Source: Beroe forskalii (lineage: Eukaryota; Ctenophora; Nuda; Beroida; Beroidae). Taken from it: 64,000 bases of DNA. The stretch is from NCBI GenBank assembly GCA_011033025.1, contig WFMF01000159.1, positions 1 through 64,000 on the forward strand, written 5' to 3'. The translations under genes were made by a program, and so were the position numbers. Under the pieces are notes generated by a model. The model worked only from the letters and a program-made list of their open reading frames with translations, searched no databases and was not told the DNA's origin. Positions 2,253 through 62,645 of the stretch are shown here, piece by piece (positions within the stretch are counted from its first letter, which is position 1; each line of letters begins with the position of its first letter).

Positions 2253-2303
2253 CTGATCAGCAATACGGTCAATATTATCGAAGAAGTACTCTGCGTTGTC
2301 GTT
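2253..2303 (-). CDS. G-alpha exon 6, distal duplicate
   Basis: Identical to 19466-19516, including splice signals, and carried by copy 1 of the segmental duplication. Being symmetrical (0-0), it could be used instead of, or in addition to, its twin without changing frame; using both would repeat 17 residues before the switch region. Which copy is used cannot be told from sequence. Confidence 0.82.
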
Positions 2304-4840: not shown

Positions 4841-4880
<40 letters not shown>

Positions 4881-9794: not shown

Positions 9795-9831
<37 letters not shown>

Positions 9832-36800: not shown

Positions 36801-39800
36801 TTAGAGGATTGCCCTAGATTCTGTGTACAACGTCTCAAAACGATATTTGAACAAAATTTCTTCGCTTTACTCGTCCTTTAAAAGTCCGACTGTAATTTTG
36901 TAAAATGAACTTAAATTCTTAAATCGCTAATTTTTACCGACATTTGACAATGAAACTAGTTTTAACTTTGTGTATTTGAAATGCTATAACTAAACCCTGA
37001 AAATTCAGGGTTTAGTTATAGCATTTCAAATACACAAAGTTAAAACTAGTTTCATCGAAAATGAGAAAGTGCTGTATTATAGAATATGATCTATATCTGG
37101 AAAGTGTGTATGTGCTGTATTATAGAATATGATCTATATATGGAAAGTGTGTATGGCAATTTGGTGTACTGTACGAGAAGACTGTTTAATTGCTCAAGTT
37201 GTATTTCTAATTATAGCCAAAACGGCACTTAGCACAACTGTTGCAAGTTTGCTTAATTGCATGAAGCCCGAAGCCCGTACAACATTTGCAAGGATCCAAC
37301 ATTCCAAATCGGATGTTTGTAAAATTTATAACTATTAACTATGATAGTAGGGCCACATGGAGATGTATATTAGCGCATTCCAAGCCGTTCTTAAGCGTAC
37401 ATCAGTGCATGTTTCACGAGGAAAAGCCGAGTTTGATATGAACAATACATATGCTGAAATGATGGTCTACTGTTATTCCATTAGTTGAGCAGAAAGATCG
37501 TGGTACATACATTTCAAGCATCCGAAATGTGAGGGAGCCTAATAATCTGTCATCTACTTTTTATATCTCCAGTCCGATTTTATGCATTCTGGATGTGTCG
37601 CACACTGTTTTAAAATCTTTAAAACTGCCTTAGCAATATCCGATAATTAAAGGAATAATAGCTTACTAGGCAGTTCAGTTAATGCAGTGGTACAGTAAAA
37701 GCTACATTATACCCCTCCCAAGCCTGTTTTAGTGGCCGTGTAAGTTTGGTTATACGGTCTTCACTGAATTGCAAAAAAGTTTTAAGTTAAAATAAAAAAT
37801 TGATTTTATAAAGGAGCACTCAAAAATTTACTTAAGTGTTGAATCCGGACGAGGGTCGTCAGACCCGAGTAGGAAGAAATACTGTTGTTTGGCCGTAGAA
37901 TAGTATAGGGCCCAGCTATTTCCAGTCGGGGTATAATCCGGTTCATGATCTCAGCTGTGACCGTATACCTTCGATAATGAACTCGGCACGCCTCGTCCAT
38001 TATCCAACTTACACAGTCTCGGCTGTCTCCTCGACCATGTAAGTTGCGGTATACGGTCACCACTTCGACATGTAACCGCTTAATACATGTACATTGTACA
38101 TTCTGTACATTCTGTACATGAACATTTAGTACATTCCATTTCCACATTACATGTCTTCCAGGGAAGAGTAACTCGGATAATACGTGATTAGAGAGAGAGA
38201 GAGCTAGTAAAACTCACAGTTCACTGTACAATGCAGAATGTACTGCACTTAATAACAAGAATTCGCTGCAGCATACACTGGCTTTATTATAGTGTACATT
38301 GAGTATGCGTTACTTTGTAGCAGAAATACAATATGACAGATTTCAGGCGTATATAATAACATAATTATATTATATATGCTAGTTCTATGTGAAGTTATGT
38401 ACCAATTATATATAGCTGTGATAGGCATTTTGTAAATTGTCTGGCTTTGTAAGTTGGTTGGTTTAAGAATATTATAATCGTTTTCCGATTTATCGAATAA
38501 GTTTTATTATTTAATAATGACTTAATCAATGATAGGTACTTGGGAAAGCCAATATATCAAATTAAAGTGATGAAGTTTTGATTTCGAGAAGCATTACTAT
38601 GGGCAGTGATAGCAAGTTGTTTAATATTTTCATAGAGCTATTTTAGGAGCTAGCAACTAGTGCTGAGACATTTGGAACAAGATTATCAAGATACTAATAC
38701 ATTTCTAAAATCTATTAAACATTAATAACTTCAGATAATTTCGAAACTTCCGATATTTATAGTCTGGGAGCTCACTTGGTCGATGACCATGGCTTTTTAG
38801 ATAAAGCTAATTTTAATACCTCTTATGAAATTCTTATCTTAATGAATTCTAGTCCCAAAAATTTAGAAATCAATGAACATAAATTTATTCAAAAATTAAG
38901 ATCAATTAAACCTTTTGGAATTAATTCTAATGACCCCTTTGGGATACCTCAACTCTCATTTAAGACTTAGGTGGTTTTCTGTACATTTGCTTTGCTGTTT
39001 TCCTAATCTAGTTTATTCTCATTATAGGCACTGATGATGTGTAAAACGAAAGATTTCTGCCTCATTTTAATGAGAGTTTAATTCAGTATATCAGCATTTC
39101 ATTCTTGTCAGAGCGATTGGGAATTTATGTACTCATAACTTGAATATATGATATTATTTAACTCACAGCCCGTTCGCCGAGTTTAAAATCCAGTTTACGG
39201 AGCAGCCTCGTACTTTTTTCGGATCGTTAAATAATAATGTTACTACACACGGATATCGGTGTGGATTTCCCATATTCCACTCGGCTTCGCCTCGAGGAAT
39301 ATTCACCAATCCACACCTCAATAGTGTGTAGTAAAATCATATTATAGCATTGCTTCATTCATTATTCTGTGTAGCTATTCTACACCCCTCTACAGTCTAC
39401 ATAGTATAGTATTAAGTATGTGATGTTATCTAGCCGAAGTCGGCAACTTAAGATCGTGTTAGAATTCACGATGAATCACGAAATACAGTAGTGTAATACA
39501 TGTACATATTTAAAATGCGTGTAATGGCCCCTGGGACGCAGTGAGAAAATATTTTTAGATATTATATTGAGCCGACTGACCAAATTCAGTAACAATAAGT
39601 CTTCAAAACGTGATAAAACAGCAAAGTTGGAAATTAGAACCAATGAATATGACTTATATTAAGAACGAATATGTTTGAGTCTCCTGTGTTATATGTAGTG
39701 AAGGTACTTAATCTTCATTGTAAGCTACAAAGAAAAAAGAAATGAGCCCTCACAAAGAATCCATAACCAGCACAATGACATTTATCTAGATGGGAAAGGA

Positions 39801-42960: not shown

Positions 42961-43935
42961 GCTATCTTTAAACCATATCATTTTTGGTAACTCATGCTTC
43001 ATTTGGATCTGCCTAGTTCTCAGATGAAGGCATTTCTTTCATGGATCCCATCAAAGATTATGGTTGCAGCTGTTGGAGAGTTCTGTGGCTTGACTTGTGA
43101 AACAAATGATTAGTGAAACAAATCATTAATATTTATAGCTCACAGAATTTCTTTAAGGAAAATCACAGTAATAAATAAATCTTGTATGAAATCTCAAATA
43201 TCATTTTCAATGGCACCCTTTTTGAAAAGAAAGTTCAATAAGAATTTTATCTGAGTAGATAGAGAGATTCCGTACTGAAAGGACTCAGCCTTGAAGATTA
43301 ACTGGATAACAAAGTTGTTGGTTTGCTTAGTTATTAAGACATGGTTGAGATTAATCTGGGTATTAATCTGGGGATGGTTTGGAGGTTGTGGGATAATGAA
43401 AGAAATTTTTTGAGAGTAGGTGTTTCAGGCTTCAGGGTATTATTAGTGATCTCAGATCTTGACTTCTTAATCAAATAATTCTAGTTAAGTCCTAGATGTC
43501 TATGATACTTATTTACTATGCAAGAGATGCCTGATGGCTTAGCTAATCCAATAACTCAGGCAATCCCAATTCAGTATATTATTGTTATGTTTGTAGTATA
43601 CCCATACGCCTTTATAGATAAGACATTGGATTTGATAGTTTCAACTTTTGGGTGACACGCTTCACTGCAGCTAAAGGATGCTCTCGCCTTGTCTGCTTAA
43701 TCACATCCCAGGAACAATGGGTGGGATCATGGATGAATAAAATTTAGCAAAAAAATATGGAGATGGCACAGAGAAATAAGTAAAGGTTTGTTGCTTTCCA
43801 TAATATCTTAATGAGGAGAAGAATAAGTGGGAACCAAAATAAGGAACAGGGCAAGGGATGGGGAAATTCAGACAGAGTTAATTATTAATATTAACTGATG
43901 AAGGAGATCTAGATGCAAATATGACAACCCTACGA
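42961..43935. other. Intergenic or 5' intron sequence, no gene
   Basis: No ORF or splice-consistent exon. About 50 bp at 43585-43635 are an inverted copy of 7497-7550 (TATACCCATACGCCTTTATA), a short dispersed repeat. Confidence 0.5.
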
Positions 43936-43939
43936 AACC

Positions 43940-44330
43940 TATGCACTCATTGGTGCGCGGCGCGTACACGCCATTTAGGTCCGCGCGCTACGTCAAGTTT
44001 TGGTAGCGTTAGGCTAAAATAATTAGACGATCCGTCCATCAACATTCCAATGCGCGGCGCAATGGCGCGCAACATTCAAAATCAGTGATTCAGACTTTTT
44101 GTTCTTAACAAATGCAATTGCAGAACAAAGGGTGGAACGTGAACGAATACTTACCCTATTTTCCCTTATTCAACCGCATGGCCTTAAGGTCAACACTCAA
44201 CGACAGAACGGCGTAAAAATCCTATTACTATCGTGGTCAAGACAGTAACAAAAAGAAACGCAGAGATCAGATTAATCAAGGCGAAAATTGGTGACTTTCG
44301 AGGCCGATACTAGGCCTCTATACTTTAAAT
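43940..44330 (-). promoter_or_regulatory. CpG-richer stretch, possible 5' UTR exon of G-alpha
   Basis: Unlike its surroundings this piece has many CpGs (GGTGCGCGGCGCGTACACGC, TCCGCGCGCTACG). On the minus strand a consensus donor GTAAGTATT follows AATAG, with donor G at 44154, which would end a non-coding first exon starting in 44155-44330; the ATG exon at 42380 would then need an acceptor such as CCTAAG just upstream of the ATG. Inference only. Confidence 0.3.
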
Positions 44331-44440
44331 TGGCATGGCCACAAATAACCGGTAGAAAGACGTTGTAGGCAGCCAAAGCACACTATTCATTGAGCCTTTT
44401 TTACTAGTCATTCATGGCCGCTATGAGGGTCATATAATTT

Positions 44441-44990
44441 GGAGAACGAGGTCGTTCAGATATAACACTCACGTATACGACTGTCGCCTATTATTGGCTT
44501 AGTGAAAAGACCGATAATGGTATCCCGTGGTCGGTGTAAGCTTTGTTTTTAGCCACTGTGCGGCTGTTTTACGACAATTATACCGATAAAAGGCCGTCTT
44601 ATACATAACAGAACGGTACAACTTATATAAGTTGTACGGTAATATGTGTCTTATGCAATTGCAAATGACCGTAAGCGTACAACTTAACCGAATATGAGCC
44701 TCATATCGGCCATTATAACCAGTATATATGGGCTTTAAAACACCCGGTATCCCGTGGCCCTGGTCGGTGTACGCTTTATTTTAGCTCGCTGTGCGGCTGT
44801 TTTGCGGCAATTATTATACCGTTCTGTTATATATACAAGACGGCCTTTTATCGGTATAATTGTCGTAAAACAGCCGCACAGCGGCCAAAAATAAATCCAT
44901 TATCGGTCTTATCACTAAAGCTAATAATAGGCGACAGTCGTATACACTATACGTGAGTGTTATATCTGAACGACCTCGTTCTCCCAAATT
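44441..44990. mobile_element. 550-bp palindromic element between the divergent genes
   Basis: TTTGGAGAACGAGGTCGTTC at the left and GAACGACCTCGTTCTCCCAAA at the right are inverted repeats that continue inwards for about 180 bp (GACTGTCGCCTATTATTGGC, GTGCGGCTGTTTTACGACAA and complements). Internal units GTGCGGCTGTTTT and ATCCCGTGG..TCGGTGTA occur more than twice, giving nested palindromes. Non-coding fold-back element; it occupies the space between the G-alpha 5' end and the RAG1/Transib-like gene. Confidence 0.8.
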
Positions 44991-45044
44991 GGGCAGTGGG
45001 CACGATGTCTCGTTAATTAAGCATCAAACCAATCGCAGAGTATA

Positions 45045-45233
45045 ATGAAATTAAAACTGAAAGTCACGAACGGAAAGCTTATAAGAAAAAGAAAAAAACT
45101 TCTGCAGTTACAGCAAATGCAAATGAAAAAGCTTCTAGAAGAATCTGAGCAACTGCAAAACAAAATGGCGGAATCAAAGAATTCGTACGCGATGCAGCTT
45201 ATTTCGCGTTCGCAAAGTTATTTTGTCCAATAA
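45045..45233 (+). CDS. Small Lys/Gln-rich ORF, possible coiled coil
   Basis: 62 codons from an ATG: a basic start (KLIRKRKKLLQLQQMQMKK) followed by a heptad-like LLEESEQLQNKM stretch. It could be a small gene or an upstream exon of the gene that follows; I see no consensus donor inside that would join in phase. Low support. Confidence 0.2.
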   Translation: MKLKLKVTNGKLIRKRKKLLQLQQMQMKKLLEESEQLQNKMAESKNSYAMQLISRSQSYFVQ

Positions 45234-45627
45234 GCCGCGCGTGGCATGGCGCATTTAAAAATCGTTATTTTCACAACTCAAAATTTTGAGGAGAATAAAT
45301 TATCTTAATCATGGTGTAAATTATTTATTGATTTCAAAACCTTTTTTAATTGCATTCTGCCTTATTTATGTGTTTCTTTCAATTCCATATTATTAGCGGC
45401 ATGCACACTGTGGCGAATTCATTTTCAAAGCTGTTTAAGTTCATTTTAAAACTTAAAATATATTGCGCGGCTTGGTACTGAAGCTGAGCAGTGCAAGTGA
45501 GCAGGCAGAACAAAAACACTGCGTTGCGTTACCGTGATGACTCACGATTTCTCACCATCTTTCTTCTCCAGCCTCTTCCACCCTCCTTCCAACTGATAGC
45601 AACTGCCTCTTTCACAGCCCTCTCCAT

Positions 45628-45736
45628 GCCCGTGAGAAGACACGCATCAAGTGCTGATGCTCAGCAAGAGCTTAGCAGAGCTATTCTTCGAAAGTTCGTT
45701 GAAATTTGCAAACCTATACTCGCTCTTCAGCTTTAG
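45628..45736 (+). CDS. Short ORF upstream of the RAG1/Transib-like gene
   Basis: Thirty-six codons from the ATG in TCTCCATGCCCGTGAGAAG (MPVRRHASSADAQQELSRAI..) with a helical, protein-like composition. It may be part of a 5' exon or chance. No donor joins it to 45974 in phase 1 by eye. Confidence 0.18.
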
Positions 45737-45973
45737 CTGCATCCCTTTACTGACTAATACGACATACGTTATTGTGTTTCTCAACACAAACCGATATTAA
45801 ATCGTTTTAGTGTCAACTCGGTCAATTCAGGATCAGCATCTCTTATTACTCAGGCTAAGTAAAAGTTAACAAGGTATTGATAATGAACGTGTTGTTTGTT
45901 TACTTTTATTTTTGGTTGTTCCTGTTCCGTATAGTAAATGCCTCTGGAGATAACACTGATACCCCCTTCACAG

Positions 45974-48900
45974 GTCGAGGAAAGTACTCCTTGCGGGACA
46001 GGAACACTCAGCGTCACCGAAGTAAGTGTTTAAGATTCAAACTAATACTATGATCTTTTTAATGTTCCATCATCGAAAAAATTAAATTCGATTTTTTTAC
46101 AACATACTACCACATCAATTCGTCCACCTGTTCAGATTATATTAACTTATTAAAAACATTTATTACTTTATTACATTGTGATACAGTCCGTCAGTAATCA
46201 ATGTGTGTCCTCATAAATCAAAACCAAAGGAGCAAAGGAGGGGTACCTACTCGGTAGTATAACTAAAACTAAAAGTCGTCTCCCCACGATCGACATGTCA
46301 GATTTTTCACATTCCTGCAGCACACTCAGTTTACTGCATTACGATGATGATTTGTTCCATTCTAGTCTTTATGACTCTATAATATTACATAGAAATTAAA
46401 TAATTGAAATTAAAATAATGTACTAATGTACACCCCACTCGCCCAGCGGCACAGGAGATACAGGACATGTTGGATGAAGCTGAGGATTCATGGTCGGATT
46501 CTGATGCAGGTTCAGGTACAGAGTTCGACGATGTTCAAATCGAAGTGGACAACACCGCTGATGATATTGCAGGGTACAGGGAAATGCTGGAGAAACTTCA
46601 AGGAGGTAATATTAACCCTCCTCCCTCATTGCAGGACGTCCTTTATGATTGGTCCTATGGTTTAATTATGAGCCTTCTAAAGACGAAACAGTTTGATAAG
46701 TTATCGTGTTATAATAGGTTAATTTGTTCCACTACTTAAGTAATGATTTTCTGACAGAGGGTTTAACCTGCAGGTGACGATGTTGCAAAAACGCCAGAGT
46801 TACCAACGTTCTTGAAGAACTGGAATCAAAAGGGCTATCGGAGAGGAAATTCTGAACAAGGAGAACAGCAGGGTGAAGAATCAGGTATGATCGAATCAGG
46901 AATTTTAACTCAGAGTTAGACCTTTATAAAAAATATAATAGGTGTACATATCCCCGCAGCCTCTCTATAACTATAACTATAAGGGCTGTAATTCGTATCG
47001 CACGCGCATGCGCGTGCGATATTACGAAAATATATCCCTCGAGGGCGCTGGCCCGAGTGGGATACTTATTGACCCTTTTTAACCGGCCCTTAAGAGCTTA
47101 AGGACAAAAACGACTTTGAGTTTTTTGTCCAAAGGGCCGGCTAAAAAATGGCCGGTTTAATTGAGGCCGATTAAATAAAAGGCCAGTTGATTTACGCCAG
47201 ATGAAACTTTTATTACTTGCCTTATGTACTGTTAAATTCATTTGACCGTCATCATAAAACACAGAAAATGACCTAAATCATGATATCAGAGCAGAATTTG
47301 AGTTTTCTGATGTAATTTACTTAGTACAAGCAAAATAAGCAAAAATTTCTTTGTTTAGGTTAGGCAACTGCTTGAAAAAAATTTGTCCAAGGGGCGGTTA
47401 AAATGGTTCAAAAATGATTCGATTTTTGTCCATAGGGCCGGTTAAAAAGGGCCAGGGCCAGTCATGTCTCGGGGGTTTTTAGTAAATTTATATCAGAAAT
47501 ATAGTTATAAATATGCAAATTAAAATTCATGCATTTTACTTGCGAGGCTGATATGAATGGGGTATATTGGGATTGTCTCCGACGATTTCATTTCCCGCCC
47601 CCTTCATGGTCAGCGACCTTGATTTTATAACTATAAGACGGTAAAACGTTATTACTTTTAATTCCTAGTTCTTAGTTCAAACGCCTTATAAATGGTGTCT
47701 AAAGCTTAAATTATGGTTTTTCAGGCCGTCAGGGCACTATATTTATTTATCATACAGCAGTGTTGAAGTTATTACAGGAAGGAAATTTCGAACCAGAATC
47801 TTTCTTCGCTTTGCGACGTGACCTCTGTAACAAAGCATATAATACAGGATTGAGAATCCCGCGGGTACATAGATAATAAACAGAATTAATACTACGTTAA
47901 GGCCGGTTGATGACATCGATAAAAGTTGATAACGTCCAGCACTATACCACAGAAAACGAAACTTTCAGCGCTAAATTCACCATGACAACCGCTGAAACTG
48001 CACGTGCTTCGCGATGTTTGCTGGGGGGAGAGGAGCTCTCTTTCTCGGGGGATCCTTTTTGGGAGCTTTGATTGTTTGTCTGACAGCTAAATAATCCTGA
48101 ACTCTCCTGTACAGTATACTGCCGAGACAACAGCTAACACTCCAGCCAGGATTAGCAACAATTGCAGTGTACAATCTGCCTGCATGATCTGCAGCGGGCT
48201 AACACCAGTTGGCTGGCACACCAAGTTACCATGGCGACGTAGTGAAGAAGTCCTTGCCCTTCGCGCCTTAGAGGTTCTAAGGATACTCTCTTGCTGTTCG
48301 CCACTGAGCTCATCCCAAGGCTTTTTCTTCCTCTTCTTCTCCTTCTTCTTCTTCTTCTTACTACTTTCTCCCCTTGCTGACCTCGTAACTCCTCCACTCA
48401 CCAGTAAGACCAATCTTTGTTTCTGAAATGGGGTCAGATAATCCAATGGGGGAACGGACAATTCATCTCACGACATTTCATCTCACGACACTTTACCTCG
48501 CAATATGTCAGCTCTACGCAAAGGTTAGGGTCTGGGTTAGGGTTGGGGTTAGTGTTTGGGTTAGGGTCAGGGTTAGGGTTTGGGTTAGGGTTATGGTTAG
48601 GGTCAGGACACGGAGATGAAGTGTCCTGAGATGAAATGTCGTGAGATGAGATGTCGCCCACCCAATCCAATGATCTTCAACATGCACACACACAAATGAC
48701 TGATTGGCACTGCCAAGCTTGTAGTTGTACGAGAAAAAACTTTTTTTTGATGATGATTGATAGATTTTGAAACTTGGTTGGTCATTCATTGATTTAAATG
48801 TTCATCAGACAAGAAGTACAAAGCACTTATTTTAAGATTTTAGATTGCTTTTAGTTGAAATACACATCTAAATCCTCTCGATAACAAATAACGAATTCAA

Positions 48901-51900
48901 TATGAAAACACATGCAAAAATGAATTTCACCCATTGTCTACAGTATTTGTGGGCGGCAAGACGCTTTTCATTCCTATTTCCTAAGTTCAAATTAGAAACA
49001 ACCTATTAATGGTTTCTTAAGCTTAAATTAATTTTGTTACCTTGGTAGGGATCGTTCGCATATATTACATTATCATCTAGGGGAGGCCGGAAGGGGGCGT
49101 TTTCAAATGATTACGTAATAAAAATATCAGTCAGTCAGAGTCAGTCAGTCAGAGTCAGTCAGTCAGAGTCAGTCAGTCAGAGTCAGTCAGTCAGAGTCAG
49201 TCAGTCAGAGTCAGTCAGTCAGAGTCAGTCAGTCAGAGTCAGTCAGTCAGAGTCAGTCAGTCAGAGTCAGTCAGTCAGAGTCAGTCAGTCAGAGTCAGTC
49301 AGAGTCAGTCAGTCAGAGTCAGTCAGTCAGAGTCAGTCAGTCAGAGTCAGTCAGTCAGAGTCAGTCAGTCAGAGTCAGTCAGTCAGAGTCAGTCAGTCAG
49401 AGTCAGTCAGTCAGAGTCAGTCAGTCAGTCAGAGTCAGTCAGTCAGAGTCAGTCAGTCAGAGTCAGTCAGTCAGAGTCAGTCAGTCAGAGTCAGTCAGTC
49501 AGTCAGTCAGAGTCAGTCAGTCAGAGTCAGTCAGTCAGAGTCAGTCAGTCAGAGTCAGTCAGTCAGAGTCAGTCAGTCAGAGTCAGTCAGTCAGAGTCAG
49601 TCAGTCAGAGTCAGTCAGTCAGAGTCAGTCAGTCAGAGTCAGTCAGTCAGAGTCAGTCAGTCAGAGTCAGTCAGTCAGAGTCAGTCAGTCAGAGTCAGTC
49701 AGTCAGAGTCAGTCAGTCAGAGTCAGTCAGTCAGAGTCAGTCAGTCAGAGTCAGTCAGTCAGAGTCAGTCAGTCAGTCAGTCAGAGTCAGTCAGTCAGAG
49801 TCAGTCAGTCAGGAGTCAGTCAGTCAGAGTCAGTCAGTCAGTCAGTCAGAGTCAGTCAGTCAGTCAGTCAGAGTCAGTCAGTCAGAGTCAGTCAGTCAGT
49901 CAGAGTCAGTCAGTCAGAGTCAGTCAGTCAGAGTCAGTCAGTCAGAGTCAGTCAGTCAGAGTCAGTCAGTCAGAGTCAGTCAGTCAGAGTCAGTCAGTCA
50001 GAGTCAGTCAGTCAGAGTCAGTCAGTCAGAGTCAGTCAGTCAGAGTCAGTCAGTCAGAGTCAGTCAGTCAGAGTCAGTCAGTCAGAGTCAGTCAGTCAGA
50101 GTCAGGTCGGTCAGGTCAGTCAGAGTCAGTCAGTCAGAGTCAGTCAGTCAGAGTCAGTCAGTCAGAGTCAGTCAGTCAGAGTCAGTCAGTCAGAGTCAGT
50201 CAGTCAGAGTCAGTCAGTCAGTCAGTCAGTCAGAGTCAGTCAGTCAGAGTCAGTCGGTCAGAGTCAGTCAGTCAGAGTCAGTCAGTCAGAGTCAGTCAGT
50301 CAGAGTCAGTCAGTCAGAGTCAGTCAGTCAGAGTCAGTCAGTCAGTCAGTCAGAGTCAGTCAGTCAGAGTCAGTCGGTCAGAGTCAGTCAGTCAGAGTCA
50401 GTCAGTCAGAGTCAGTCAGTCAGAGTCAGTCAGTCAGAGTCAGTCAGTCAGAGTCAGTCAGTCAGAGTCAGTCAGTCAGAGTCAGTCAGTCAGAGTCAGT
50501 CAGTCAGAGTCAGTCAGTCAGAGTCAGTCAGTCAGAGTCAGTCAGTCAGAGTCAGTCAGTCAGAGTTAGTCAGTCAGTCAGAGTCAGTCAGTCAGAGTCA
50601 GTCAGTCAGAGTCAGTCAGTCAGAGTCAGTCAGTCAGAGTTAGTCAGTCAGAGTCAGTCAGTCAGAGTTAGTCAGTCAGTCAGAATCCGACTAAATATCA
50701 GTTGTAGTGGCAATCAGCTAACATGCAGCTCAATATCGTCTTTTACAGGGCAGAATTCAGGAAGATCAAATCAAGAATTCGATCCTTTCTCAAGCTGTAA
50801 TGTCAACGTGGAAGAAACACCTAAGAGACCATCCAAAAGAAAACGAAAGAAGCCAACGTATGTTCTCACTAAAGCGAGGTTGTTGGAGATAATCGAAGAT
50901 ATCAAAAGTGCGAGCAAGAGTCCCTTTAAATACGCGCATGTTAGCCACATGGAAATAGTCACATATTTCACCAGTGAAGAAGGTTTTGAACATGAACTCG
51001 ATGCAGAAGCTAAGAAGACAGCAGCGGACAAAATCAGGCGCTACGTAAGTACCACATCACAAACGCATTTTGATTCTTTATAAAGTATAAGACGTTTATA
51101 TTACTTATACGTTAGACTTTTATGCGACATTATAGGCAGCTGTTTATAATAGGTTCTTTAGATAGGTACTTGAGTACAATTAATTTCTTAATTTGAAATT
51201 GAGAGTTACAATATACGTAACCAAGTATTGCAGTTTAAAAAATTGCTCCAATCATCAAAATATGAAGTTCTAGCTTATAACGCTTATCTTTTTAACATTC
51301 CATGTAGAGAGACGATCTAAAAAAACGGTCGAAATCCAGCAGTAGAGGGGCTGCTCTTCCCGATAGTGACGTGGTTTTCGATTTTAGTGGCTGCTTGAAA
51401 ACAGTGTCAGAAGACTCAAAGAAGTCTCGACCTGAACGCAAGAAAAGTTTCGATAGTTTAACTCGACAGGGGCAGAAATACAGGGTAGATCAGACTATGA
51501 AGAAAATTGATCGAGCAGTGGATCAGGTCTGGTAAACTACTTTTTTACATAATTAATCCAATAAGTACTTTGAGGAAATTGCGGTTTGCGCTTTCTGTAT
51601 TGGACTTAATCTGTACCTTCATTTTCCTTAAACACAATCTATTTAATACAACTGTGATGTGACGTCCAAAATTTTTAGAGATTTTCGTGACTAGATTTTC
51701 GTGACATTCAGATTTGCGAGAGCGATGATGTGCCGAGAGAATGCATTGATCAAGTTTTGAGATCACGGTACTCTACTGATTTCAAGAAAAAAACTTCTCC
51801 TACTGCAATCGAGGCTCTGGTAATTAGCAATTCTGCTCGCTTAATATTGTTGGCTGTATATGTGTGAGCATCAGCATATATAGTTTTAATTTCAGTGGGT

Positions 51901-54900
51901 TATACTACCTACCTATAACTATATTTGAGTATCTGGATGAAAATCCCCACAAACTTAAAACTCATAGAGGCATCAATATCAGTAACGTAACTATAAATAT
52001 TTCAGGCACATATGGTACACCTGAAAGCCACCAAGAGAGAGGCCACCGCCATATCCCAGTTTGCCAAAAGGTACGACTTGTACATACCTGGGGAACGCGT
52101 ACTGCGTAAAGAAAGAAGAAAGAGGCTACCACCGTACTCGTTTGGAAGGTAAGAAATATGCACTCACATGTGATTCAGTGATTCAAAAGGATTTTATCAT
52201 TGTTCTATTTGTCGCATTATTATGAGATTATAATGACTAATTCTCTTACAATTACATCATTCTATGTCAACAAGAGGCATAAAGATATTTGCGAATTTCT
52301 GGAAATCTATCGCTCAATTTTTTGATTTTAATTTTCATTAATTCGATCCTATCAATTATTTTTGGCTCTTTTAAACTAATTTTCAATCATTTTAATTCAT
52401 ACTGATTCTTATCTAAAATTCAACGGTGCACAGACCAGTACCTGTTGACTTGGAGGAGAACGATGAGGAGAAAACAGAGATCAATGTCGGCGTATTCGTG
52501 AGGCGGTCTGACATGGTCAAGCAAGCTCTACAGCAACTCATCGAGCGGAAAGATGTTGTGCCGGATGGAAAGTCTCGTATGGCTCTCCACATGGACTTTC
52601 ATCAAGGTACATTCAACCCCTCAATAAAATTTATTAAATTTAATATTTTGAGTTTATATTTTTCAATATGTATTATAAAATGTGTATTATAAAATATAAT
52701 GCATTATAAAATTATATGATGTGCTATCATTTTCATGATAGCATTGTTCGAAAAATTTCATGATAAAGGAATATGATTCCTAGGCATGCGATTATGGAAA
52801 TACCATATCGAACATAATTATCACGGACTTTAGTTTCACGGGCCTAAAATTTCACGGACATAAATAATAATATTCACGCTCGATCCTGCCACTTCAAATT
52901 TCAACCAAAATTCGAAATTTTCGGCTCGATTTTTCTCATTTTCTTCCACGATTTGAATACTTGAATTGAAGATTTTTTTCAATATTTTTCGTTGATTGAT
53001 ATGATAAATTTCCATATTTATGAAAAAGAAGTATAATTTCCTTAAAAATTTTATTTAAAGAGATGAAGTCAGAAACTTTCCGTCTCTACCTAGAAATTTT
53101 AAGAGGAAATACCGGACTTAATTTTCATGGACCTGAAAATCACGGACAAAATTTTCACAGACATTAATATTCACGCTGAGGTGCTCAGCGTGAATGTAAT
53201 GTCCGTGATAATTAGGTATGTCCGATAAAGAAATTATAGCACGATCGGCTTCGCCCTGTGCAATCAATAAGCACAATAATTCCTTTTTTGGAATCCTAAT
53301 ATTTATAGGTATTACCTTAGAATTACATTAGAATTAGAATTAGAATTAAAATTAAAATTAGAATTAGAATTAGAATTAGAATTAGAATTAGAATTAGAAT
53401 TAGAATTAGAATTGGAATTAGAATTAGAAGTAGAATTAGAATTAGAATTAGAATTAGAATTAGAATTAGAATTAGAATTAGAATTAGAATTAGAATTAGA
53501 ATTAGAATTAGAATTAGAATTAGAATTAGAATTAGAATTAGAATTAAAATTAGAATTAGAATTAGAATTAGAATTAGAATTAGAATTAGAATTAGAATTA
53601 GAATTAGAATTAGAATTAGAACTAGAATTAGAATTAGAATTAGAATTATAAATTAGAATTAGAATTAGAATTAGAATTAGAATAAGAATTAGAATCGGAG
53701 TTTAGTTTCACGAACGTTTATCCTTGACGAGTTGGTCTAGCGTGGTTCCACGCTAGGGAAGCGGTTGCCAACCGGTTGCGAACTGGTAGTAGAACGGTCC
53801 ACAACCGCTTCACTAGCGTGGTTCCACGCTACGTAGCGTGGCGACTAAGCTACGTAGCGTGGCGACCATGCTACGTAGCGTGTAACCACGGTATGTAGCG
53901 TGGTAGATTGCACTCAAAATACCATGCTACGTAGCGTGTAACCACGCTACGTAGCGTGGCTGATAATTAGGGTAATTAACGACGAAAAATGTCCAATATT
54001 GCGCAATCAACCACGCTACATACCGTGGTTCCACGCTACGTAGCATGGTCGCCATGCTACGTAGCGTGGAACCACGCTAGCGAAGCGGTTGTGGACCGTT
54101 CTACTACCAGTTCGCAACCGGTTGGCAACCGCTTCCCTAGCATGGAACCACGCTAGACCAACTCGTCAGGGATGTGCTCAAGGGTAACATTTTGTAATGG
54201 CGTGAAATTTGTGAGAAAATTCCCATTTATTTTAACTTAAATTTCACATTATTCATAATTTATAATTCCCCATTATTTATGTGTAGGTAGGTAGGTACTC
54301 TGAAGAAGCTAATAAGCGGGGGGGGGGAGACGATAGCAATTTTCAAGGAAAATGTCCAGGCCAGGTACACTTAAAAAGAACCCTCCCCGTTTAAGCAATT
54401 TTTGAAATTTTTATCACATTTAGTGCAAAATTTACTCAGAAATGGTGATTTTTTGTTCTTTCCTCCATATTTTTTGGTAATAAGTTTGTAAACTTGGCTA
54501 AGCGATGGTCTGGCTAGCATAAATCAAAGAAATTTCGATTACTTCCTGGGCAAAAACAATTAAGGAGTTTATTCGTTTCATCAGAAATCCAGGTCCACCC
54601 ACTTATTTGGCAGCCCCCCCGTTAGCAGGAAATTCTCAAACCCCCCACCCCGGTACGCTTAATTCAAACCCCCCGCTTATTAGCTTCTGCAGAGTAGGTA
54701 TTACATTGTAATCTATAAAACACAGTACAAAGTTGCAGTGATTCGATCAACTCATGTCTCTGTCTTATATTTTATATTAAGATTATTATATTAAGATTAT
54801 TATAATCTTAATTTAATAGACAATAAAAATATCCAAAGTGAGCAGAGCTGTGTCGTACGGGTTATAAGAAAGTAAGAATATGGGTAGTTGCTGTTAGAAA

Positions 54901-57900
54901 AATAGGCAATCTCGATTCTCGAGTGCCATCAATTTTCTGGAGAAAGCATAGGTTTGACGTCACTCAGCTCCATTTTACTTATGTGTACTAGTCTTTAAAA
55001 GAACTTAAAAAAACACGCCTGCAAAATTTGCAAAATTCCTTGGAGTTGGTATATATTGGTCTAATCTAATAAATGGCATAAATTGAGACCTCGATTCTCT
55101 CTAAATTCGATTTGAAAGCAATTAAAGCCCAGTAATATTTCCCTTCCCTGGGAAAATAGGAGGGAGAGAGAGAGAGAGGGACAGAAAGACTGAGCTATGG
55201 TGACTGGTCATGGTTTGGCGGTTGGATCAAAGATCATTATTTGCAGAATTTACATAAATCACCCCCAGCCGGAAAACCGCATCATTTGGAAAATTATATT
55301 CATAATATTCATTATATTATCAATAAATTCCTCTGAATAATAAGCCATATAATAATGCAATGTTATAAAGCAAAGTTAGAAATTGTGATTTCGCTAGTAT
55401 ATGAGACGGAATATTGTACGCACAGATATACCTACCTATACCTTCAACTGATGGCGCAGGTCGAACGCGCGAGGAGTTTAACTCGTGTCTCCTGCATGAT
55501 TTTACTATGTTAAGTGATACCTAAATATTCACATGTCCCTGACAATGAACAACTATGAATGTCACACCTTAAAGTAATTTAATTATAAGATATAAGCTCA
55601 ACAGTTTTATCGGCAGGGATGGACGGAGCCAGCTCACATCAGGAGGTCTTTGACATGAAGACGTCGAAACTTACGCAGGCAGGGCACAGTCTTAAATCAT
55701 GTCAAACATTTGCTGTCACCCTCATGAAATGTTCCATAGCAGTAGAAGAGAAGGTAAATAGAAGAGGGAAATCTTAATCGTTGATATCTCCTTTATGTTA
55801 CAATAATAAAACTAACTAATATTAACTTATCATCTAATTTCATAATGAGGTTAAACTTAAGTAGTATTTTAATTGTTTACATTTTAATCAACAAACAAAT
55901 AAATATCTTAAGGATAAGAATAAAATCATAATGATAAGTCCATCAGCTAGAGATAAATGCTATTTTAGTTTTACTGATCACCTATATTCCTATAGGTCAG
56001 CATGGAAGGCGGAAACCGAGATGCAACACCTAGTGAGGAGGTCTTATACAAAGTAAGACATCCAAACTCGTACAAGAACCTGAAACCATTGTCACTCGTA
56101 ATGGAAAAAGAATCTGCTGATCTTCAAGAGTTTTTAATGAACAGGTAAGGAACCATTATTGTTTCACTTTCAGTCGCTTAACATTAGAATTCTCATTGTC
56201 GATCCATCCAGTTCTGTTTGTTCCCAAACTCAAACTAATGAATTTTTGTACATGCAATAGGTAACCAATTTTTCAGTAGTACCTTATCGGGCATAATTAT
56301 CACGGACATTATTATAGTATTATCACGCTGGGCACCTTAGCGTGGATATTAATGTCCGTGAAAATTTTGTCCGTGATACTAATGTCCATGTCCATGATTT
56401 CAGGTCCGTGAAAATTAAGTCCGGTATTTCCTCTGAAAATTTGTAGGGTTGAGACGCAAAATTTCTGACTTCATCTCTTTAAATGCACAAATAATAAAAT
56501 CTTTAAGGAAATAATACTTCTTTTTCATGCTTAGTACCTGCAATATGAAAATTCATATTAATGAGCGAAAAATATTGAAAAAATCTTCAATTCAAGTATT
56601 CAAATCGTGGAAGAAAATGGGAAAAATCGAGCCGATAATTTCGAATTTTTGTTGAAATTTGAAGTGGCTGGATCGAGCGTGAATATTATATTATTTTTAT
56701 AATGTCCGTGAAATCTTAGGTCCGTGAAACTAAAGTCCGTGATAATTATGTCCGATAAGGTATACCTACTGAAGGCAACACTTATTTTATTTGTCAAACT
56801 ACTACACTTTTTTGTCACACTGTCACACTTTTGTGTCGCACAAGCGCTGTCAAACTGTCACAGTGTGACATACTTCAACTATAGGGTTAGGAACATGATT
56901 AGGGTATGGGTTAGGCTCAAGAGTTTGGGTTAGGTCATGGTTAGCGTCAGGGGAGAGAGGTAACATGTCTGTGAGGTAAAATGTCTGAGGAATTATAAGT
57001 CGGGTTCCCACAAAAAAGTGTGACGGTGTGACAAATGGTAAAAGTGTTGCCAAGTCGCCCTCAAATTTTTTGTAAGTATCTAATAATTAAACTATTAAAG
57101 GTATCCGGACGGCAAAGTTTTCTATACATACAACTTTGGCAATATTGAGTTTGCTGTGTATTGCGAGTTCACGACATGTAAACTGGATGGCAAATCTCGG
57201 AAAGCGATGATGGGACGAGGAGGGGCATACTGTACCCTCTGCAGTATCACTAAGGAGCAATACCACACCCCATCTGGAGTGAGAGTGCAGGTACGTATAT
57301 AATAAGTATATAAGATCCCCATAATTATTGCTTTATTGTCCCACTTTAATTTTCCTCGTAAAGTAATTTTCCTCGCAAGGTAAGTAATTCTATGGTTAAG
57401 TTTCTGTTTCAATTAAATATCAATTAAGAAGTAAATTCGAAGGACTCCTTCATCGAGTTTAACTGCGAGAAGAAGATGAGAGAATATGAGCGATATCTGA
57501 CAACGGATGGAACGATAGATGTCGGAATGGAAAGTAGGGCCAGGGATGGGTGGACACAGCGCCCATATGGGGTAGCTCATGGAGTTGTTGTTGTCCATGC
57601 TGCACTTAACATCGCGCTCTGGGTATCCAAAGTTGCAGTTCGTTCAAACGTGTAAGTAATATGAATGCTTTATTCGTATTATACAAATATGTAATGTTTC
57701 CATTTTTCAAGACAGCATCAAAATCTCAAAATTATTCTTTCATCGCATGAGCGGTGTGGGAGGCAACTCCCTAATTTTTCGCCACCGAGTTGATATATTG
57801 ATGTACCTATGTAAATTTTGATAATTTTGTCATTGGTTATCGCCGTGCGGGCCACGCCCATTTATTACCCGTTTTTGGTTGTGAACATTCTGATACTATA

Positions 57901-60860
57901 AATTTATAATTACTTCTAGAAATAATTTAAAACATTTTCAATTCTATTTCACAGATTTGCATCCAATAAAGAACTTGAGGGAAAAGAAACCTGGGAGATG
58001 AAAGGTCACCTGAAAGATCTGAAGAAGATTGAAGAAGACAAATTTATGGCAGAGGTACTCCACCCTACTCCAATAATATAATTATAAATTCCCCTACAAA
58101 AGTACAAATGCTCAAATGCGCTGTAATTGCTGCTAATTAGCTAATATTACTGCCATTTCTGAAATTTACTCCCAACAAAATTCCCCGCATGAATAATTTC
58201 CTGTAGGAATGAACCCTTCGGGGCAGCCTCACTCTACTGTTTCTTGGAACTGTGGTGGCAAAACGGTGCCGTGGGGCAGAATTATACAATTATAGTTTCC
58301 TTTATTAATTTATTTGATTATGGATCTATTGTATCATAGCTCTGATTATCTCGCCACGTGCGACAGCTTGGCCAAGGAGTTTGCCACGTTAGGAAGATAT
58401 TCGGTAAGGAATCTAGCCCAGCTGGAGATCGCGACTACAAGATTGAACTCACAGTACCTCAAAGCTATGCTATTGCTATATTGCGGCATCGTCATTGGTT
58501 GGTGTACAGTATTCTATATTCTCCCACACATATTGTGAGAAACTCCCTTGGAAAAAAGTGGTCATCAAATTCAAATTGAAATAGCCCTATAGCGGAAGTT
58601 TTACAAGAAATTATCCCAAAAATACCATGTATTCAATGATCATAACAAATCTGTATTTTTTCAGTTGAAGAAGAGGCAGATTGTTTTGAAGGATGTTGGA
58701 AAAGGAAACACTGGAGGAGGAGCAACTGGTAATCAATTTCTTATGTATTCATGCTTCGTATATAGGTTATATACTAGGATGTTACCCTACCCCGCGCGCA
58801 CAATTACGTTCCACATTTGGACAATGGACGGTCACATATGTAACGTCCGTCGAATTCATGCTTTAAAATTACTATTTATATACAAAATAAAATAGATAGC
58901 AGTAGGTGTAACGACTCAATTGATTTCTATCGTTGATGATAAGAAATTCAAATATATATAAATATTCTCTATGACACGCAGTTTTGTACCCATGCAATTG
59001 TATTGATCTGCAGTTGATTAGAAAATATTTACGACTTATATATATGATTCCAGGAAAACATTGTAAAAGATTTCTCGAGCGTGGTAAGGATGTTCTGCCC
59101 GAGCTCATGAAAGACAAGGCGAAAGGTGAAAAGCTGGGGATGATAGCAGATCTGTTTCACGTTGTAATCAAGGTTCTCAACACGAATAAAAGGATTGATT
59201 TGGACCTGTACAAAAGATTATGCCATATAATTGGCATTCAAATTATATCCCACTTCCCATGGGCTGTTATGGGAGAGACTGTTCATTCGGTTAGTATGCA
59301 ATATCCGTTATATTTATAAGACAGCTTATTTTGAACTTTTGAAAAAGGGGAAATCAACGCGAGAATTTCCCATTTTTGCTGGAAATTTGAAGTGGCAGGA
59401 TCAATTTAATTTTATATATTGTCATTTTTGATTATATTGCGATAAGCTTATAATACTTTCAGATACTTGCACACAGCTGGGAAGTTATACAGAATAACGG
59501 GAGTCGGGGACTACTTGAATTATCAGAAGAAGGTGTTGAAGCCCTCCAGAAGCACGTCCGCTATGCAAGGTATAAATATAGGTCCATAATATTATTAATA
59601 GTTGATCAATGTACCAGCACGATATTTGCTCAGATTCTTGTAATATTGGGACACGTGCGTCTCGTGATATGGATCGTCTCGTGACTAGGGTTGTAAAAGA
59701 CATGCAAAAATCACGAAAAAAATACGACTTAGGCACCTACTTGCCTCAACAGGAAAAAGAGTATTTTTTTTTCAAAATACGTCTTTCCAATATGATACCT
59801 AAAGAAAAATTTCGATCAGTTTTGTTAAATAGCATTAGCAGCACGAAAAAAATACGGCTGGGGGAACGGACATTTCATCTCAAGACACTTTATCTCGCAA
59901 TATGTCAGCTCTTATATGCAAAGGTAAGGGTCTGGGTTAGCGTTAGGGTTTGGGTTAGGGTCAGGGTTAGGGTTTGGGTTCCGGTTAGGGTTATGGTTAG
60001 GGTCAGGACAGGGAGATGAAGTGTCCTGAGATGAAATGTCGTGAGATGAGATGTCGCCCACCACGCTAGACCAACTCGGCAGGGTACCTTGCTCATGACA
60101 TTATAATCATGACATATATAATTATAAACTTATAAAGATATAATCCAAATAAAGTTAAATATGTGTTTCACTTTCATAGGAGTGCTTATTCATGGTTGGG
60201 AAGCTTCCATACGAACCTGGGACAAGCATTAGAGGCCCTCATCTTGAGTTCAGACCTTTACCTGAACTTCCTCGTTGAGAAAGTGCCTAAGAGGATAACG
60301 AAACAGGTAAATAAATGATTCAGGGTGGAAATTTGATTCCTATAACTGGAAAAATTGTGTCCCTCATAATTGGTCCTTATATTTATAATTTCCCCCCATC
60401 GCAAGTTATAATGTTGGTGTGGTTCTAGCATATTGTCAACAATGTGATATGCCATAATCCATCTACTGCATTAGATAGGTCTGTACTCTGATAATGATCT
60501 GCAGGACCCCACGGTTTTGATTATTCATATTTTTACCAAGCTGTAGTACAGTTACGTTCCTGAGGTCCTCGACCTGTTCCATTCGATCGACCGATGTGTT
60601 CTACCAGGCCGCTTATTACTAATCTCACCAACCTACAGGAAAAAACTTTCAACAGTAAATATAGCTAATGAGATGTCGCCCACCCCTCCATATAATATGA
60701 TTCCACTGAATCTTGACTATTTCAGAAACCCATCGTTCCTGAAGATGTACAGACTTCATCGACACCGAGGAATGGCAGCTCGTACTACCTTAAAGCAGTG
60801 ATCCTTGAGGAGGAGGATGACGGGCAGATAGCCGGAAGCAGTAGACAGGCTGACTCTTAG
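45974..60860 (+). CDS. Intron-rich RAG1/Transib-like DDE recombinase gene
   Basis: Relative of the DDE recombinases that cut DNA at recombination signals (RAG1) or transposon ends (Transib). Exons: 45974-46021, 46447-46605, 46774-46884, 50749-51044, 51308-51526, 51712-51819, 52006-52148, 52434-52606, 55617-55753, 55996-56144, 57101-57290, 57443-57651, 57955-58054, 58665-58728, 59054-59289, 59463-59569, 60180-60306, 60726-60860 (TAG). All 17 junctions keep phase and use GT/AG; 902 residues plus an unseen 5' end. Residues 17-68 are acidic; a basic patch KRPSKRKRKK lies near 130, then a KKSFDSLTRQGQKYRV motif. Core landmarks: MDGASSHQEVF (D421), HPNSYKNLKPLSLVMEKES (RAG1 PNSELCCKPLCLML), KLDGKSRKAM (D543), AYCTLC (C558, C561), VHSILAH (H779, H784), LSEEGVEALQK (E806). 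Spacings match RAG1 closely. No RING finger seen. Weakest calls: the first exon's start, the donor GTCTGG at 51527 and the acceptor at 57442. Host gene or transposon cannot be settled here; many introns favour a host gene. Confidence 0.85.
46997..47020. repeat. Perfect 24-bp CG-rich palindrome
   Basis: ATCGCACGCGCA and its exact complement, centred on GCATGC, in an otherwise AT-rich intron. Role unknown. Confidence 0.8.
47071..47453. mobile_element. MITE with GACCCTTTTTAACCGGCCC termini in the intron
   Basis: Left end GACCCTTTTTAACCGGCCC, right end GGGCCGGTTAAAAAGGGCC. Internal repeats of TTTGTCCAAAGGGCCGG. No target duplication recognised. Confidence 0.7.
47725..47864 (+). CDS. Candidate extra (cassette) exon of the recombinase gene
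   Basis: After acceptor TTTTTCAG the frame set by the exon ending at 46884 continues open and protein-like (TAVLKLLQEGNFEPESFF.., RRDLCNKAYNTGLRIPR) to a GTACAT donor. Entry phase fits, but exit phase is 0 while the next sure exon at 50749 needs phase 1, so it would need another exon between, or it is used in a different transcript, or it is chance. The main model skips it without a phase conflict. Confidence 0.3.
48087..48461 (-). CDS. Minus-strand ORF in the recombinase intron, uncertain
   Basis: 124-codon frame with a lysine run, then KKPWDELSGEQQESILRTSK and ARRARTSSLRR, and a hydrophobic end LLLILAGVLAVVSAVY. The WDELS..Q phrase is a little like the FDSLTRQGQKYR motif of the host gene on the other strand. 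It could be a fragment of an inverted gene copy, an exon of a nested gene, or chance. The lysine run comes from an AAG microsatellite. Confidence 0.2.
   Translation of the reverse strand: MSVPPLDYLTPFQKQRLVLLVSGGVTRSARGESSKKKKKKEKKRKKKPWDELSGEQQESILRTSKARRARTSSLRRHGNLVCQPTGVSPLQIMQADCTLQLLLILAGVLAVVSAVYCTGEFRII
48448..48663. mobile_element. Element with TTAGGG-like core and 8-bp target duplication
   Basis: Flanked by AATCCAAT on both sides (48440-48447, 48664-48671). Ends GGGGGAACGGACA and GTCGCCCACCC, with subterminal CATTTCATCTCACGACA in inverted copies. The core (about 48525-48605) is degenerate (GGGTTAGGGTT)n. An 8-bp duplication suits hAT-type insertion. A second copy lies at 59860-60062. 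Confidence 0.8.
49119..50689. repeat. 14-bp satellite (TCAGTCAGTCAGAG)n, about 110 units
   Basis: 1.57 kb of the 14-mer, i.e. (TCAG)3AG, with occasional units longer by multiples of TCAG and rare substitutions (GTTAG, GGTCGG). It fills part of the intron before 50749. Confidence 0.97.
52797..53230. mobile_element. MITE family A, member 1 (intron)
   Basis: Left CATATCGAACATAATTATCA and CGGAC; right GTCCGTGATAATTAGG and TGTCCGATAA. The interior (CTCGATCCTGCCACTTCAAA) matches 56280-56762 in inverted orientation. Confidence 0.7.
53318..53690. repeat. (GAATTA)n hexamer array
   Basis: About 60 copies with rare GAATTG/AAATTA variants. The Glu-Leu repeat ORF over it is an artefact. Confidence 0.96.
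53726..54167. mobile_element. Fold-back element built from GCTACGTAGC palindromes
   Basis: Ends GACGAGTTGGTCTAGCGTGG and CCACGCTAGACCAACTCGTC. Inside each arm are several copies of CCACGCTACGTAGCGTGG and CATGCTACGTAGCGTG, themselves palindromes, plus AAGCGGTTG/CAACCGCTT. A solo right end (CCACGCTAGACCAACTCGGC) stands at 60061-60080. Non-coding. Confidence 0.85.
54296..54696. mobile_element. MITE with TACTCTGAAG termini
   Basis: Ends TACTCTGAAGAAGCTAATAA and TTATTAGCTTCTGCAGAGTA. Homologous to 17335-17686. Between here and 55616 the intron is AT-rich without a gene; a GA tract lies at about 55155-55180. Confidence 0.82.
56280..56762. mobile_element. MITE family A, member 2 (intron)
   Basis: Ends TACCTTATCGGGCATAATTA and TAATTATGTCCGATAAGGTA, followed inwards by TCACGGAC/GTCCGTGA. 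Internal palindromic phrases GTCCGTGAAAATT. Non-coding. Confidence 0.82.
56797..57050. mobile_element. MITE with TGTCACAC ends and degenerate TTAGG core
   Basis: Left CACTTTTTTGTCACACTGTC, right GTGTGACGGTGTGACAAATG. The core carries a few TTAGG/GGTTAGG phrases (56883-56950) and AGGTAACATGTCTGTGAGGT. It is separate from, but similar in idea to, 48448-48663. Confidence 0.55.
57101..57290 (+). other. Exon with catalytic D2 and the zinc CxxC
   Basis: Reads FAVYCEFTTCKLDGKSRKAM then MGRGGAYCTLCSITKEQ. The LDGK Asp stands 15 residues before the first Cys of CTLC; in RAG1, D708 stands 19 before C727 of CTLC. The LDGK context is nearer to Transib, the CTLC motif is identical to RAG1. Confidence 0.82.
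59054..59569 (+). other. Exons with zinc histidines and catalytic E
   Basis: Exon 59054-59289 (GKHCKRFLERGKDVLPELM, matching RAG1 GNFARKLM..) ends ETVHS; exon 59463-59569 begins ILAHSWEVIQNNGSRGLLEL and continues SEEGVEALQK. The two His are five residues apart as in RAG1 H937/H942, and Glu lies 22 after the second His (20 in RAG1). The SEE..EA form is typical of Transib. Confidence 0.85.
59860..60062. mobile_element. Second copy of the TTAGGG-core element
   Basis: GGGGGAACGGACATTTCATC at the left, TGAGATGAGATGTCGCCCAC at the right, core GGGTTAGGGTTTGGGTTAGG. It directly abuts the solo end of the GCTACGTAGC element at 60061. A further short end (GAGATGTCGCCCACC) is at about 60669-60683. Confidence 0.8.
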
Positions 60861-60933
60861 AGATTAAGAAGGGTATCCGTGCTGGCAAGCGCGACGTCCA
60901 CCTCGTGGCTCGTCATATGTAGCAACACATATC

Positions 60934-61500
60934 ATTACCTTATCGGACATTATTACAACAGACATTACAGGCATGCTAAGCATCTCAACGTGAATATCAA
61001 TGTCCGTTCCCTACAAATTGTAATTATGATTTTCCAGTAGTTCCTCTTAAAATTTCTAGGGTACAAATGCAAATTTTATGACTAATTCATCTCTTCATAA
61101 GTTTATCCAGTGTAATACCTTAAAACTGTAATAACTAATAGAAGTCCAATAGAAGTACTTAATTAGTATCAAAATGTTCACAATCAAAAAGTGGGGGTCT
61201 GGGGGCGCAGCCCCCATAAGCCAGACGTTTCATGTTTAAAAATTTCAGTTGCAATAGGATTTTATACACAAATTTCAAAATTTTAGGCTAGAAGTTTCTT
61301 AATTTCTTAATTTCAGATCATTGAAGTTTCTTAATTTTTTCGAAATTTTAGGCTAAGTTTCTTGAATTGTTGAGAATCCTAGGCTAAGTTTCTTATATAC
61401 GGTTTCTTATAAAAGAAACTGAGTGTATAAATGTCTGTGTTGTTTTAGGTCGACGTAAAAGTTGAAACTAAAGTCCGTGTGATGATTATGTCCAATAATT
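60934..61500. mobile_element. MITE family A, member 3, with a GGGGGC hairpin unit inside
   Basis: Left ATTACCTTATCGGACATTAT, right GATTATGTCCAATAAT. It contains a unit at 61196-61275 (GGGGGTCTGGGGGCGCAG) related to the tandem at 30654-32286, and short TTTCTTAATTTC tandems. It begins about 75 bp after the recombinase stop codon. Confidence 0.6.
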
Positions 61501-61941
61501 AGGCATTAACGCCCCCTGACCGATAAATTTCAAATTTTACTTTTCCCTTTTTTTATGCTGGAATGTGTTCTCATAGAGTCATAGAGTCATAGATTACTTC
61601 TCATAGAGTCATAGATTACTTCTCCATTAAATCGGGCATGACTCTTTCATAAATCTATAAGCATGATATATGTTTTCAGTTTACTAAATTTTACTTTTCC
61701 TACTAACTTTTGAGACACGGATGATTGCTGATCATGATTAGCACTTCCGCACTGTAGTTTCAACTTCCAAGCTGCTAATTTAAAAATTCCTCAAAAGGGC
61801 AGCAGAATTTTCCCTGTACGTGCGATGATGATACGTATTGCATAACATTTGCATGTTATTCGAACAAAATAATATATGTAGGGCAACACTGGATATACAA
61901 TTACATGCCGTAAATTAAAATGCAATTGTTCATCGGTAAAA

Positions 61942-62408
61942 ATGAACTCGGCAACTGTTTTATCACTTGGAGAATGTTACGATCCCTATTTCCAAAAATA
62001 CTTTGGTGCAATTAAATTGACAAAATTGCGTGTTCAGAAGTCTAATTATGAGGCATCAAAGATTGCCGTTAATTCAAATTATGGTATGTAAACATGAATT
62101 CTCTGCTGCCTGACCTATTTTCAATCGCTCATATAGCAGCTGAACTATAATTAGAGTTAAATAGAGGGTGGGAAAAGGTACATATTCTACTTCACGCCCG
62201 AAAATCTATAGAATAGTATTTATACTAGTAGAATTAGCCAAAGTCAATCTTTTTGCGTTCAGGGTCCTTTAATATACTGAAAAGAGAAATTACGGACGTT
62301 ACGCAGGAAGTCCCACAGGGAATTAAGCACTGCTATCACTCTATCAGGCCGTTGATGATGCAAGTTATAGTGAGCTATCAGCTACATGGAGCAGCCGCAG
62401 GATGCTGA
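61942..62408 (+). CDS. Hypothetical two-exon ORF
   Basis: Exon 61942-62083 (ATG; MNSATVLSLGECYDPYFQKY..) with donor GTATGT, joined in phase 1 to 62263-62408 (..FNILKREITDVTQEV..) ending at TGA: 95 residues. An alternative frame in 62335-62500 is also open (SATWSSRRMLITVGTDFRHL), so the second exon may end earlier and the gene continue. No family recognised; no Kelch or PHD features. Confidence 0.35.
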
Positions 62409-62645
62409 TTACTGTTGGCACAGACTTCAGACATCTAGATGCAACGCAGGACGTGCAGATCCACCAGAAAGAGACCTATAGTATCTCGAGGTAGCTTTTA
62501 CTGATGCTCGTGTACCCTCTTGTTGCCTATTAGAAGCATGAAATAATATTACCCTGCAATGCGTATTCAATATAGCCATCAAGCCCTTTGGGAATTGCAG
62601 GAGTCTGGAAAATATTCCTATTTATTGACAACCCTTTTCCCGCAG

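Follow-up and report, generated by a model that had tools for sequence, protein, structure and literature searches.

Contig WFMF01000159.1 of the ctenophore Beroe forskalii carries, within the 64,000-nucleotide stretch analyzed here (C202:1-64000, hereafter the window), an intron-rich gene that is likely a host gene derived from a Transib-superfamily transposase. Purifying selection has probably kept it, and at least one paralogue, over a long span, and its product probably still cuts DNA. The gene occupies 45974-60860 on the forward strand (~15 kb) and comprises 18 exons and 17 introns, all GT-AG, whose spliced product of 902 residues has no internal stops and ends at a TAG terminator. The start and end coordinates of the chain were taken over from an earlier sequence-only reading, and exons were picked so as to keep the frame open; the 18 phase-consistent exons claimed there did form a continuous chain. 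Exon 5 is followed by a poor donor (GTCTGG), selected to fit the frame, an extra open piece at 47778-47864 was frame-incompatible and excluded, and the first exon could not be fixed from either the window or the paralogue, so the 5' end of the model stays incomplete.

The paralogue was found on another contig (C247) of the 216-Mb genome, all 1134 contigs of which were searched. With its exon boundaries chosen with the window model in hand, splice positions and phases were the same in all 13 exons compared (exons 5-17), nine being of equal length and four differing by multiples of three. The two proteins are identical at 418 of 645 residues (65%), that is, 35% have changed, and every one of the 13 exons is open. 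Between the two genes, pS was 0.78 and pN 0.22, and dN/dS was 0.075 by maximum likelihood and 0.156 by LWL85, values that are rough because synonymous sites are saturated; for the same reason NG86 yielded no dS, and YN00 gave no dN/dS value either. Only the last residues of exon 4 (...INRY) were weakly matched in C247 (tblastn E 2.3), and no counterpart of exon 18 was recognized in the 1.2 kb past its exon 17. The remaining similarities between the window and C247:2143500-2162000 (E<=1e-6) did not lie in corresponding introns and had the look of dispersed repeats; C202, C247, and C469 carry the same dispersed repeat and therefore belong to one genome. Judged by its splice sites and substitutions, the C247 gene is an old, constrained, intron-bearing duplicate.

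The catalytic DDE core and the zinc site shared with RAG1 and Transib, also claimed in the sequence-only reading, were recovered. The D/D/E triad corresponds to D421, D543, and E806 and the zinc C2H2 set to C558, C561, H779, and H784, in the order seen in Transib. C247 has the same three acidic residues and the same four zinc ligands, and agrees with the window protein at 26 residues surrounding D543 and the CTLC pair. Exon 5 encodes a stretch similar to the nonamer-binding domain of RAG1. From ZnC2 to the H795 position the window protein has 68 residues versus 65 in RAG1 and 31 in HzTransib, the solved Transib transposase (PDB 6pqn), the end point being set by eye; H629 at this position was aligned to HzTransib and equated with RAG1 H795 by eye. 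Given these residues, the product is probably still a DNA-cleaving enzyme. It would be located in the nucleus and, as RAG1 and Transib transposases do, bind a short DNA signal in dimeric form, using the exon 5 segment and adjacent domains. Cleavage would proceed by nick-and-hairpin transesterification at the kept active site; instead of mobilizing its own gene, the enzyme would act on fixed sites of the host or on transposon ends left behind in the genome.

Several points weigh against this reading. The C247 gene was traced over exons 5-17 only, and exons 1-3, most of exon 4, and exon 18 of the window gene have the open frame as their support. The dN/dS estimates are rough, as stated, and active transposases too show purifying selection between copies. 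D421 was assigned by motif and place only, whereas the other catalytic and zinc residues sit in alignments, and catalytic activity is predicted solely from residues. This last point favors a serious, if unlikely, rival, namely a host DNA-binding regulator that does no cutting and in which the active site persists by chance or for the sake of folding; transposase-derived regulators exist, for example plant FHY3/FAR1. That reading has to contend with three acidic and four zinc residues that are identical in both copies despite 35% change between them.

We consider it quite unlikely that the gene is an autonomous intron-bearing Transib-like transposon or, with C247, a pair of old copies. Its Transib-family identity, the selection that transposases also experience, and the near-identical intron-poor relatives in the same genome, mostly on C469, are compatible with such an element; however, the copies have diverged by 35% to synonymous saturation, yet 13 of 13 exons are open, and ~15 kb with 17 introns would be carried along. 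Of the 100 inverted pairs in the interval 43500-62500, the 25 longest were inspected, and not one of them brackets the gene as terminal inverted repeats (TIRs) would. A 440-residue core was also compared with the whole genome, and the best 42 matches listed comprised nine in this gene, nine in C247, and 24 elsewhere (eight on C1112, six on C469, two each on C166, C447, and C870, and one each on C300, C1024, C980, and C614). Among the matches listed, identity reached at most 78% outside this gene (in C247) and at most 63% outside both genes, and none was a near-identical dispersed copy of this gene. Many near-identical dispersed copies, which the sequence-only reading had named as evidence that would overturn it, were thus not seen among these matches, and its description of a long-kept, intron-rich host gene agrees with the shared introns of the paralogue and the purifying selection. 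The expectation of a single copy failed, given the second gene on C247 (exons 5-17) and the further relatives.

Some of those relatives bear on the age of the introns. Those on C166 and C614 have 32-44% identity. In C166, exons 14 and 15 have the same boundaries at either end as in the window gene, and the exon 15 copy as read carries a stop; in C614, exon 15 begins and ends where it does in the window gene, and exon 17 probably ends at the same place too, but C614 differs in an extra intron in exon 15, another exon 16 end, and the lack of a donor at the expected exon 14 end. As several introns are shared with C166 and C614, the intron-rich state looks older than these paralogues. A decayed, intron-free piece on C870 aligned better when the introns of the gene were removed (254 versus 179 for the window, 228 versus 157 for C247), with an alignment crossing two junctions, the second of which hangs on few bases. 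This piece could derive from a spliced transcript by retrocopying, or be what is left of an ancestor without introns; it is an indirect hint at transcription and splicing.

Multi-copy, intron-poor relatives, mostly 91-99% identical, occur on C469, C447, C300, C980, and C835 (L023, L027-L033, L037-L053), and some of the C469 group hold long open frames. Unlike the window gene, one C469-group relative matched PDB RAG1 chains (E 0.0074), and one C469/C300 relative reached the Pfam RAG1 family (PF12940) at E 0.0069. We could not establish the C469 relatives as a clean transposon: on one side copies end at differing places, on the other side four copies stay homologous beyond the apparent end, and no TIR was recognized in a search that was not exhaustive. 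On C1112 (112959-134985; L025, L026), an array of fragments matched only the last part of exon 11 and the exon 12 region; stops or frameshifts interrupt several of them.

Membership in the RAG1/Transib recombinase superfamily, as the sequence-only reading proposed, was confirmed by a significant match of the product to HzTransib (E 6.4e-10, 41.1 bits) that spans the C-terminal half and takes in the zinc histidines H779 and H784 as well as the catalytic E806; D2-to-zinc spacing is also alike (15 against 16). In contrast, the amphioxus BbRAG1L (PDB 6b40) scored only 12.7 bits. PF12940 gave nothing against the product at E<=10, whereas it scored mouse RAG1 at 1185 bits and an HzTransib fragment at 20.2 bits (E 0.00018). 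By these scores the gene is nearer to Transib than to RAG1 or RAG1L. HzTransib differs from it in that the window gene has 17 introns and a constrained paralogue; RAG1 and RAG1L share with it the catalytic triad, zinc ligands, H795 position, and nonamer-binding-like segment, and are far less similar to it overall than Transib is.

On these scores it is very improbable that the gene is a true RAG1L from the RAG transposon lineage, whether or not paired with RAG2L, and we rejected this reading; "RAG1-like" in the strict sense does not hold. The contiguous motif Cx2Cx3GHx4C, given for the RAG1L CTT* in PMC7204232 and used here to test CTT1, was absent from all six frames of the window and of loci L021-L068, and the product has no Cys past residue 814, in a 3' exon without independent confirmation. 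A RING/zinc-finger N terminus is likewise missing, residues 1-204 of the model with its incomplete 5' end holding one Cys and four His. The RAG2 family (PF03089) had no match in the genome, although its control was silent as well, and PF12940 against the whole genome also had none, yet its control was equally silent. Mouse RAG1 gave 10 matches across the genome, all in C469/C447 relatives (best E 0.10), and the HzTransib fragment a single one on C300 (E 6.15). A prokaryotic or viral source was rejected, with 0 of 26 and 0 of 35 pattern matches confirmed in the genome-contig and viral-contig collections, using patterns built from four sequences that distant relatives could escape. A decayed pseudogene, or an open frame arising by chance or modeling, is barely credible, since even with exons selected for an open frame, first and last exons unsupported independently, and one poor donor, all of exons 5-17 keep positions, phases, and frames in an independent copy that is 35% diverged.

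PMC7204232 reports RAG-like (RAGL) transposons in deuterostomes, molluscs, a nemertean, and cnidarians, and PMC9435367 adds a pelagophyte alga. The latter paper also lists six Transib-like proteins from ctenophores, naming Mnemiopsis and Pleurobrachia; these share the host phylum of the window gene and may be its relatives. Tao et al. 2022 (PMC9435367) describe Subgroup I Transibs, with asymmetric TIRs, a CTT1 tail, and a zinc insert kept at RAG1 length. The text assigns the ctenophore proteins to no subgroup; the order of a figure legend suggests Subgroup I. The window protein resembles Subgroup I in its RAG1-like zinc-insert length, length alone fitting in the alpha11-alpha12 zinc-domain region (68 versus 65 in RAG1), and differs in lacking a CTT* motif and any TIR among the inverted pairs inspected. 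Domesticated sea urchin RAG-like genes (PMC9885083, PMC8355894) are likewise many-exon, host-kept invertebrate recombinase genes, but these are RAG1L/RAG2L, whereas the window gene lies on the Transib side and is without a known partner. None of the open-licence PMC papers listed in our searches describes a Transib-derived ctenophore host gene that is intron-rich and under constraint.

Among transposases that became host machinery, vertebrate RAG1, which shuffles antibody genes, is the textbook example, and the published invertebrate parallels that we found are RAG-like genes from RAG1's own lineage. If the present gene is what we propose, it would represent a separate domestication, on the Transib side, in a lineage that was among the first to branch off within the animals. 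Such a gene would also prompt the question of programmed self-DNA cutting in ctenophores. Whether Transib or RAGL came first is left open in PMC7204232, and the nonamer-binding-like and RAG2-docking-length segments make this order testable. A more far-reaching scenario, offered tentatively and somewhat improbable, is an independent ancient domestication within the RAG superfamily near the base of the animals, in which a Transib-descended enzyme that cuts programmed ctenophore host sites kept RAG1-type signal-binding and RAG2-docking-length segments; it would show either a RAG1 precursor before RAG2 or a parallel solution.

Exons of the Transib-derived gene in the window, with the features and support noted for each
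Exon	Coordinates	Strand	Features and support
1	45974..46021	+	RGKYSLRDRNTQRHR; open, GT donor; no paralogue support; putative 5' end
2	46447..46605	+	Acidic region; open, AG/GT, phase-consistent; no paralogue support
3	46774..46884	+	Open, AG/GT; no paralogue support
4	50749..51044	+	Basic stretch KRPSKRKRKK; open, AG/GT
5	51308..51526	+	Segment resembling RAG1 nonamer-binding domain (SRPERKKSFDSLTRQGQKYR)
6	51712..51819	+	Splice positions and phase as in C247
7	52006..52148	+	Splice positions as in C247
8	52434..52606	+	Splice positions as in C247
9	55617..55753	+	D421 (GMDGASSHQ); same splice positions in C247, 14 identical residues QGMDGASSHQEVFD
10	55996..56144	+	HPNSYKNLKPLSLVMEKE; counterpart of RAG1 KPNSELCCKPLCLMLADE; C247 comparison and alignment
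11	57101..57290	+	D543 (KLDGKS); zinc cysteines C558, C561 (CTLC)
12	57443..57651	+	RAG1-length zinc-region insert; H629 at RAG1 H795 place; acceptor backed by C247
13	57955..58054	+	Splice positions as in C247
14	58665..58728	+	GKGNTGGGATG; splice positions as in C247 and C166
15	59054..59289	+	Zinc H779; splice positions as in C247, C166, and (both ends) C614
16	59463..59569	+	Zinc H784; E806 (SEEGVEALQK); aligned to HzTransib and BbRAG1L
17	60180..60306	+	Splice positions as in C247
18	60726..60860	+	Terminal TAG; cysteine-free, hence no CTT* motif

Within the gene, a 14-bp unit (TCAGTCAGTCAGAG) is repeated 112 times in intron 3 (49127-50679); the array lies inside three open frames that overlap one another and are 506-653 codons long, and it ends ~70 bp upstream of exon 4. 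Exons 9 and 10 are flanked by an inverted pair of a dispersed repeat (52800-53228 and 56280-56763), a related copy of which (85-88%) occurs in a C247 intron.

The sequence-only reading had raised the possibility of a sponge host, which was not borne out. The only match to COX1 was on C1134, where the first 900 bp, read in mitochondrial code 4, were very divergent, being 50% identical to a sponge-like probe; AGA fell on conserved arginines and TGA on tryptophans, i.e., code 4. Published Beroe forskalii mitogenomes are likewise read in code 4 (PMC6991124); their mean GC is 17.3%, against 30.4% in these 900 bp. We rejected a sponge on COX1 and code 4, in agreement with the ctenophore origin, and a silicatein-like probe was not diagnostic. 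That probe gave 150 scored papain-type protease matches among 254 candidates (best 52%), many within single open frames of 400-1200 codons.

Elsewhere in the window, 1491-15874 and 18755-38731 form a broken direct segmental duplication with blocks 86-96% identical. It includes a duplicated, secreted-looking open reading frame of 156 residues, within 11433-11993 and 33120-33680 on the reverse strand, one copy of which was scanned and had no Pfam match at E<=1. A fragment resembling a G-protein alpha subunit lies at 41263-41349 on the reverse strand (PF00503, E 2e-10, 40.8 bits, below the cut-off of 48.8), and a near-perfect palindrome of ~1.07 kb (94%) spans 8106-9171.
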